Origin: Nocardioides zhouii
GTDB lineage: Bacteria > Actinomycetota > Actinomycetes > Propionibacteriales > Nocardioidaceae
Direction of reading: 5' to 3'
Assembly (NCBI RefSeq): GCF_004137345.1
Contig: NZ_SDWV01000001.1
Coordinates: forward strand, 62,001-126,000
DNA: 64,000 nt
The translations under genes were made by a program, and so were the position numbers. This document shows, in pieces, positions 52,363-55,779 of this stretch (positions are counted from its first letter, which is position 1; each line of letters starts with the position of its first letter). The notes under the pieces were generated by a model that saw only the letters and a program-made list of their open reading frames with translations, made no database searches and was not told where the DNA came from.

Positions 52363-54858
<2,496 letters not shown>

Positions 54859-54897
54859 GGCGTGTCCTCTTGTTGCTGGCTGCTGGGTGGTGGCATG

Positions 54898-54921
54898 AAA
54901 AAACCCCTCACATGGAGGGGT
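54898..54921 (-). terminator. leuS attenuator terminator
   Basis: On the minus strand a seven-base stem (ACCCCTC/GAGGGGT) with a five-base loop is followed at once by six Ts. It lies 40 bases before the leuS ATG, after the leader peptide, which is the layout of a transcription attenuator. Confidence 0.88.
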
Positions 54922-54968
54922 AGCCGCGTGTCGGTCCTCGTGGGTGGGAGGACTCGATCAGCGCGGCT
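54922..54968 (-). promoter_or_regulatory. Alternative structures of the leuS leader
   Basis: CGCGGCT (54962-54968, plus-strand coordinates) can pair with AGCCGCG (54922-54928), and GTCCTC/GAGGAC (54934-54939, 54948-54953) can form a hairpin inside. The distal arm abuts the terminator. These are candidate pause or competing structures. Confidence 0.65.
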
Positions 54969-54993
54969 GAGGAAGGAGGAGCTGGTTCTGCAC
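54958..54993 (-). CDS. leuS leader peptide, leucine-rich
   Basis: An 11-residue frame, MQNQLLLPQPR (GTG start), with three consecutive Leu codons CTC CTC CTT, ends 37 bases before the attenuator stem. TATGCT (55000-55005) is exactly six bases before the GTG, so the message may begin at the start codon. Stalling at the Leu codons would cover the first arm of the leader structures. Confidence 0.78.
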   Translation of the reverse strand: MQNQLLLPQPR

Positions 54994-54999
54994 GGGACC

Positions 55000-55005
55000 A
55001 GCATA
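55000..55005 (-). promoter_or_regulatory. Candidate -10 box of the leuS transcript
   Basis: TATGCT on the minus strand, six bases before the leader GTG. No clear -35 match is seen. Confidence 0.5.
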
Positions 55006-55014
55006 CTCGTTTCC

Positions 55015-55779
55015 GTGAGTGCCGACCTGAGCAGGTACGACGACGTCCTCGATCTCCTCCGCGACCTGCCCCGCCGCGTGCCCGCGCTGCAGGTCGTCGT
55101 GGTGAACGGGTCCGCGGCTGCTGGCGGCTGGGACGACCACTCCGACCTCGACATCGAGGCCTGGTGCAGCGGCGACGCCGCCACGACGTACGCCGCCGTG
55201 CTGGCGCTGCTGCGCGCCGAGCTCACGGTCGACAGCGTCTGGGAGCTGCCCGAGGCGACGTGGCCGGACGGGCGCCAGTGCTTCGTGCACCTCCAGCCCG
55301 ACGCAGCCGACCTGTCGCGGCCGACGCGGCTGCTCGACATCGTCGTGCTGACCACGCCCGAGCGGCTGACGATGGACACACGCCGCCACGGCACACCGAT
55401 CGTCGTCCACGACCCCGACGGACTGCTCGTCCTGGAGGACGACGACGAGGCCGAGCTGGCAGCCCAGCGCGCGCAGGCGATCGAGCAGACCGCGGCGCGG
55501 CGCCAGACGGCCGCGTGGCTGGTGGAGCGGGCGATCGCGCGCGACGACCTGGCCGAGGCGACCCTGCTGCACCTGCGGTTCGCGGTGGAGCCGCTGGTCA
55601 AGCTGCTGCGCATCCAGCACTCCCCCGCCCGCTTCGACTTCGGGCTGCGCTACCTGCGCACCGACCTGCCCGACGGGTTCGCGGAGCGGGTGGAAGCACT
55701 GCTGCCCGGGCCGGACCTGGCGGTCCGGTCCCGGGCAGCGTTCGCGTGGCAGGACGAGGTCCTGGATCAGCTCAGGTGA
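55015..55779 (+). CDS. Nucleotidyltransferase-domain protein
   Basis: A 254-residue protein with an N-terminal nucleotidyltransferase fold: VVNGSAAAGGWDDHSDLDIEAW shows the GS and paired-Asp (D-D-D) pattern. The C-terminal half is helical. It may be an aminoglycoside- or small-molecule adenylyltransferase, or a MNT-like toxin-antitoxin partner; no partner gene is adjacent. The GTG at 55015 is chosen because it begins the conserved part. Divergent from leuS. Confidence 0.75.
   Translation: MSADLSRYDDVLDLLRDLPRRVPALQVVVVNGSAAAGGWDDHSDLDIEAWCSGDAATTYAAVLALLRAELTVDSVWELPEATWPDGRQCFVHLQPDAADLSRPTRLLDIVVLTTPERLTMDTRRHGTPIVVHDPDGLLVLEDDDEAELAAQRAQAIEQTAARRQTAAWLVERAIARDDLAEATLLHLRFAVEPLVKLLRIQHSPARFDFGLRYLRTDLPDGFAERVEALLPGPDLAVRSRAAFAWQDEVLDQLR

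Follow-up and report, generated by a model that had tools for sequence, protein, structure and literature searches.

The leuS gene of Nocardioides zhouii is preceded by a short open reading frame with three consecutive leucine codons and by a hairpin ending in a run of Ts. This arrangement raises the question of whether the synthesis of leucyl-tRNA synthetase (LeuRS) is controlled by attenuation and, if so, by what kind of attenuator. The locus lies in a window of 64,000 nucleotides (contig NZ_SDWV01000001.1, positions 62,001 to 126,000), to which the coordinates below refer. A sequence-only reading had taken it for a classical attenuator with competing stems and had referred to predictions of leuS attenuators in some Streptomyces. 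The reference is correct, the species concerned being S. avermitilis and S. coelicolor (PMC1262725). In addition, LeuL2, the leuS leader of S. lividans TK24, was found by RNA-seq and is reported to be transcribed leaderless, with a hairpin and uridines behind it (PMC8079986). No published leuS leader from Nocardioides was found in a literature search, for which subscription journals were mostly out of reach. A comparative survey of aminoacyl-tRNA synthetase attenuators, reportedly published by Lopatovskaya et al. in 2010, may already list Nocardioides.

Arrangement of the leuS leader

The element is situated between a promoter-like box and leuS. Next to it on the plus strand, a frame that starts with GTG 55015 points away from it (Table 1). 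The features named in the sequence-only reading are present: the GTG-started frame encoding MQNQLLLPQPR lies on the minus strand 6 bases past TATGCT, and the sequence and a terminator scan both give the seven-base stem with six Ts ahead of leuS. The last T of the terminator is separated from the leuS ATG at 54858 by 39 bases. Over residues 1-250 LeuS is 92% identical to the proteins of N. astragali and N. pini and 93% identical to that of an uncultured Nocardioides.

Table 1. Parts of the leuS leader locus, with positions in the window
Feature	Position	Strand	Basis and remarks
Putative -10 promoter element TATGCT	55000..55005	-	Sequence; 6 nt upstream of leader start codon
Leader ORF GTG...TGA, MQNQLLLPQPR	54958..54993	-	GTG 54993, TGA 54960-54958; probably leaderless
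Three Leu codons CTC CTC CTT of leader ORF	54981-54973	-	Sequence
S1 5' arm AGCCGCG	54962..54968	-	Within leader ORF; core GCCGCG begins 5 nt past last Leu codon
Inner hairpin GUCCUC:GAGGAC	54934..54953	-	Fold; nested in S1; not conserved in alignment
S1 3' arm CGCGGCU	54922..54928	-	Fold and alignments; abuts terminator
Terminator hairpin ACCCCUC-CAUGU-GAGGGGU	54903..54921	-	7 pairs, 5-nt loop; fold, terminator scan and genome pattern
T run, 6 T	54898..54903	-	Sequence; first T pairs with stem A
TG at +9/+10 after last stem G	54894..54895	-	Kept in 58/61 relatives; fits elemental pause signal G-10 Y-1 G+1
leuS, leucine--tRNA ligase, 831 aa	52363..54858	-	TIGR00396 leuS_bact, 922 bits (cut-off 548)

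Fold and covariation of the two stems

The 99-nt stretch that starts at the GTG folds with -40.3 kcal/mol, compared with -24.8 ± 3.2 kcal/mol for shuffled sequences (z -4.84; 0 of 200 as good). The inner hairpin, the S1 stem (AGCCGCG:CGCGGCU) and the terminator hairpin are all contained in the single minimum-energy structure of the leader. S1 and the terminator are adjacent and have no bases in common, and the inner hairpin is nested within S1. The pairings that had been proposed as two alternatives are thus compatible with one another.

The comparison with relatives is based on 83 distinct leaders identified by rule, 78 of which have a terminator (those without are L018, L036, L047, L075 and L130). 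After removal of L025 the merging of near-identical leaders reduced 77 to 61 non-redundant sequences, pre-selected for the presence of TAnnnT and of an LL run, from which the covariance model R1 was built. S1 begins 5 nt past the last Leu codon in 56 of the 61, and the gap between S1 and the terminator is 1 nt in 58, the gap base being able to pair as well in 20 of those 58. Folding these orthologous leaders likewise gives no competition between the stems: at equilibrium, with no ribosome placed, both stems are predicted together in 54 of the 61 leaders and the terminator in 60; a ribosome positioned on any of the Leu codons or on the stop codon leaves the terminator predicted in all 61.

Both stems covary. 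In the 61 sequences 78 cells are changed on both sides of a pair, against 29.2 ± 6.1 in shuffled alignments and 1 to 9 in sliding controls; in 50 class-level matches, with the alignment fitted to the structure, the count is 75 against 18.2 ± 7.0. The reading of the S1 5' arm varies among the leaders, with a TGA stop at +12 in 35 of the 61, a TAG at +3, just upstream of the core of the arm, in 17 and other arrangements in 9. As the arm is kept despite these differences in reading, it is selected as RNA.

The terminator in its genomic background

The terminator hairpin is the sole terminator-like site in 601 bases on both strands, where shuffled sequences average 0.1. A search of the whole 4.6-Mb genome for CCCC-N3-14-GGGG-N0-1-TTTTT gives this place alone, with two entries owing to the variable gap, and the reversed control gives none. 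Sites of the shorter pattern GGYTTTTT number 8, which does not exceed the count in the reversed control, so that the T run by itself is unremarkable. By inspection of the folds, 3 of these 8 sites close compact G+C-rich hairpins and belong to the leaders of leuS, ilvB and cimA; a further site (L215) has a long hairpin reaching the T run, and at another (L208) the hairpin ends 4 nt short of it. As a terminator background for the TG motif described below, 400 kb of the genome was dropped in favour of these whole-genome pattern searches, as it held only 2 sites, one of which resembles the start of a 16S rRNA gene. Nocardioides has been reported as the minimum among Actinobacteria for predicted Rho-independent terminators, with 30 predictions (PMC2965389). 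The leader matches no Rfam family, T-box included, at the gathering score, and gives three sub-threshold matches of 14-17 bits.

Distribution among relatives

The genus sample comprises 50 leuS loci, those of 49 congeners and the window's own; of 59 searched genomes 50 were read for the leader. R1 matches 46 of the 50 loci, training rows included, and a rule-based scan gives the same 46. Among 80 named leuS loci it matches 39 at E<=1e-6, again with training rows included and with L075 marginal. All 20 loci labelled Nocardioides or Marmoricola are matched, and none of 30 loci from genera of the Microbacteriaceae. At E<=0.01 matches are obtained in 231 of 394 genomes of the class and in 94 of 137 genera.

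Fifty class-level loci were examined closely, a non-random selection of the 30 best-scoring and 20 chosen for diversity, of which three (L154, L172 and L175) are genomes already among the 61. LeuS is encoded near 48 of them, 17 with less than 50% identity being confirmed as TIGR00396 leuS_bact; of the remaining two, L157 is cut by a contig end and L204 precedes cimA. One leader outside the training set, L188, encodes the peptide MRAVRLLLSEPR, which is exactly that of LeuL2, lies before leuS and has the same S1 and terminator. It scores 65.0 bits with R1, and the window leader 67.9 bits. The identity of this peptide to LeuL2, together with the match to the same model, indicates that the device is of a known kind, the ribosome-mediated leuS attenuator.

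Several loci depart from the common arrangement. In L018 and L130 the leader and stems are kept and the T run past the terminator stem is replaced by CCCTTCTC; these terminators have possibly decayed. In Microbispora corallina (L034) a remnant-like leader start, GTGCCGCCACCCTGCTTGTCGGGCAGCCG, is found with no evident terminator before leuS and no R1 match. Two leuS genes (L189 and L190) are present in genome G264, with 65% and 37% identity to the query over the matched parts, and both are preceded by a separate leucine leader and attenuator.

Promoter and start of the leader

Owing to the pre-selection of the 61 leaders for the TAnnnT box, the -10 element was assessed in the class loci found with R1, which does not model this box. 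In 47 of 49 a TAnnnT lies 6 or 7 nt upstream of the leader start (28 and 19, respectively); L205, which has no readable start, was left out of the 50. The two misses are the cimA leader L204 and L206, which does fit if its reading begins at an upstream ATG. In S. lividans the start site lies on average 6.3 nt from the -10 box (PMC8079986). A simple scan of 601 bases found no sigma-70 promoter and no good -35 element. The -10 spacing fits a leaderless transcript, and the Nocardioides zhouii leader is probably of this type, as is reported for LeuL2.

On the plus strand the sequence CATACT (55002-55007) is followed 7 nt later by the GTG at 55015 of the divergent frame and overlaps TATGCT (55005-55000) by four bases. 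The two elements may form a single bidirectional promoter that gives leaderless transcripts on both strands. No Pfam family matches the divergent frame (55015-55776).

The four genus loci that lack the leader (L115, L118, L122 and L125) have a TAnnnT directly upstream of leuS, 6 nt from a GTG in L115, L118 and L125 and 11 nt from an ATG in L122. Where the attenuator has been lost, leuS thus seems to be left with no leader or almost none.

Leucine codons of the leader peptide

CTT is the last Leu codon in 55 of the 61 leaders. In the class sample it is present in 41 of 48 Leu runs, of which 39 end in CTT and two (L157 and L168) continue with Ile. In this genome leuS, cimA and ilvB contain 147 Leu codons, none of them CTT. 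Within the window, 37 long frames with high GC3 (GC3 >= 0.88) use it for 12 of their 1266 Leu codons, a background that depends on the filter and rises to between 2.0% and 6.6% under laxer filters admitting more doubtful frames. Compared with synonymous CTN runs, the natural Leu runs are slightly biased toward pairing with the leuS start region (mean rank 0.40, neutral value 0.5; p 0.0017, uncorrected for relatedness). The bias is stronger for the terminator arm (mean rank 0.28), the CTN baseline being crude in both cases. CTT may be kept as a more sensitive control codon, for pairing elsewhere, or for both.

A conserved TG past the T run

The TG that follows the last stem G at +9/+10 in almost all of the 61 relatives (58) is also present in 42 of 49 loci of the class sample, a count that is biased as R1 includes the TG columns; L189 is masked in it and L200 is scored as a miss through a wrong anchor. 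In the Streptomyces-type copy L188 the TG is without its G. The ilvB and cimA leaders of the genome carry TG at the same place, the motif having been examined in this genome at the terminators of three leaders (leuS, ilvB and cimA). TG fits the consensus of the elemental pause, G-10, Y-1, G+1 (PMC12288461). It is preceded by a purine in 59 of 61 relatives, giving ATG or GTG (54894-54896 on the minus strand in the window), for which the pause consensus does not account.

Most relatives therefore have an ATG or GTG directly past the T run, and in the window the frame that starts here overlaps the leuS start (ATGA). A second frame from this codon, with the Shine-Dalgarno-like GAGGGG upstream, was considered and rejected. 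Its frame relative to leuS is spread evenly (26, 24 and 24) over the 74 scored of the 83 leaders, which argues that neither coding nor coupling is what is conserved.

Related leaders before ilvB and cimA

An attenuator-like leader also precedes ilvB in the same genome (G000:C43:187201-187310, minus strand; L184). Its frame starts with ATG and encodes MRTDILVRTRRVS, and its S1 stem, GACGCGUG:CACGCGUC, abuts a CCCCUC...GAGGGGC hairpin with a T run and TG at +9/+10. It obtains 21 bits with R1 (E 0.09). Ile-rich leaders are found before cimA, which encodes citramalate synthase, at G000:C43:151113 on the minus strand (L213) and at G441:C1:2574765-2574852 on the plus strand (L204). The peptides are MITSSIIIS and MQHRVLIIR, respectively, each followed by a stop codon; inspection gives a stem-plus-terminator layout and TG at +9/+10. 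By inspection, the leuS, ilvB and cimA leaders of this genome share the layout of a stem set against a terminator, and the TG. Among the papers listed in one literature search, no title concerns a cimA leader peptide.

Proposed mechanism and alternatives

It is highly likely, judging from the sequence, that leuS is controlled by a transcription attenuator in which a ribosome senses the supply of charged leucyl-tRNA, and shortage of leucine would very probably cause more LeuRS to be made. The conserved parts, the covariation of both stems and the fixed spacings are observed, and the leucine response, its direction, steric antitermination and pausing are inferred. Of the classical attenuator originally proposed, the attenuator with a leaderless leucine leader is upheld by the conservation of its parts and by LeuL2 of S. 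lividans, and the competing stems are not. Findings that count against this reading are that exchange of the presumed control codons of S. coelicolor ilvB was without effect (PMC1262725), that L188 has lost the G of the TG, and that the element is missing from all 30 Microbacteriaceae loci.

Transcription would start at or next to the leader GTG, as reported for the Streptomyces leader, and the ribosome would be loaded at the 5' end with no need of a Shine-Dalgarno site. When leucine is plentiful the ribosome would pass the three Leu codons and reach the stop codon, covering the S1 5' arm; with S1 blocked the terminator hairpin would close and transcription would end before leuS. When leucine is short the ribosome would stall on the Leu codons, its leading edge stopping just short of S1 and so allowing S1 to fold. 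A stable S1, 1 nt from the base of the terminator stem, could then hinder closure of the terminator in the exit channel of RNA polymerase, so that leuS is transcribed. The conserved TG past the T run may hold the polymerase at the decision point.

Folding of the 61 relatives with a masking ribosome, assumed to extend 15 nt past the first P-site base, leaves S1 free when the A site holds the first Leu codon and masks it when the ribosome is at the stop codon, which is the placement expected of an antiterminator. Once the second Leu codon occupies the A site, this footprint already removes the first four pairs of S1, which are kept in 0 of 61. Five leaders with an offset or mis-anchored S1 (L012, L031, L035, L039 and L043) score zero for S1 by construction. 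As the terminator is predicted in every state there is no equilibrium switch, and antitermination by S1 would need sterics or kinetics. Taken alone, the step in which S1 acts sterically on the terminator is suggested by the geometry and is put forward tentatively, as somewhat unlikely. The fuller proposal of a distinct actinomycete design is doubtful; it would combine an antiterminator and a terminator without common bases, a steric block on RNA polymerase, a built-in pause signal (G-10, T-1, G+1) and the rare CTT as control codon.

A classical attenuator in which an antiterminator shares bases with the terminator, as in trp, is a variant within the attenuator reading, with which its probability overlaps, and is also unlikely. 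The leuS leaders of S. avermitilis and S. coelicolor have been described as classical, having antiterminator and terminator hairpins (PMC1262725), and a base-sharing antiterminator is known from Corynebacterium ilvB (PMC10272879). Against this, an offset scan of the 61 relatives found no conserved base-sharing pairing of the right sign. The scan returned S1, the terminator, short register shifts or weaker pairings, and two candidates. In the first, a G-U-rich pairing joins the last two Leu codons to the terminator 3' arm (6 pairs in 80%); its complementarity is conserved and stronger than that of synonymous CTN runs, but a stalled ribosome would hide it, which gives it the wrong sign. The second, AGCC:GGYU, with 4 pairs in 92%, is too short.

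S1 could instead aid termination by stacking or pausing, forming a two-hairpin terminator. Both stems are indeed predicted to be stable together at a fixed gap. However, S1 is free at the first-Leu-codon stall and masked at the stop codon, so that starvation would either lower leuS mRNA or leave it unaltered; this arrangement is quite improbable.

Translational control as in the LEU element of leuA would have the Leu run pair with the leuS Shine-Dalgarno site until a stalled ribosome frees it, either as the sole control or as a second layer. Pairing of this kind is described for the leuA Shine-Dalgarno site (PMC1262725), and the bias of the Leu run toward the leuS start region might also explain CTT. 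The bias is, however, weak and outscored by that for the terminator arm against the same crude baseline, and S1, the terminator and the T run are left unexplained; we regard such control as very improbable. An ordinary end-of-gene terminator or a chance structure, in favour of which nothing was found, is hardly credible given the position between a promoter-like element and leuS with the plus-strand neighbour reading away, the conservation at 46 of 50 genus loci and a pattern unique in the genome.

Comparison with known attenuators

The closest likeness is to LeuL2 and the Streptomyces leuS attenuators, which share the gene, a leader with three Leu codons, a hairpin with a T run and stems found by the same covariance model; the Nocardioides zhouii leader differs in its peptide and its lineage. 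The ilvB-II attenuator of Corynebacterium (PMC10272879) and that of M. tuberculosis ilvB1 (PMC13236596) similarly combine control codons in a leader ORF with a terminator hairpin and U run downstream, and in M. tuberculosis a ribosome at the stop codon is described as masking the antiterminator (PMC13236596). The structures of the on state and of the off state are described as excluding each other in these attenuators, which in Corynebacterium is due to common use of the terminator 3' arm (PMC10272879, PMC13236596), whereas the stems of the leuS leader have no bases in common. The leuA LEU element likewise has Leu codons in an actinobacterial leader ORF, but acts through a pseudoknot and pairing with the Shine-Dalgarno site, and the leucine section of that paper does not mention a terminator (PMC1262725).

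With the trp-type attenuator the leuS leader shares an intrinsic terminator between leader ORF and gene, but it lacks the base-sharing antiterminator. The attenuator of the E. coli S10 operon reportedly requires for its control a hairpin upstream of the terminator hairpin, the regulator being ribosomal protein L4, as opposed to the stalled ribosome proposed here.

The present analysis supports a leucine-sensing leader for leuS in Nocardioides, in a genome in which sites of GG followed by a T run are rare, and indicates that a leuS device of the Streptomyces type is spread through much of the class. The set of sequences makes testable the control of a terminator by a stem that does not overlap it, and the reason for CTT and the pause-like TG.
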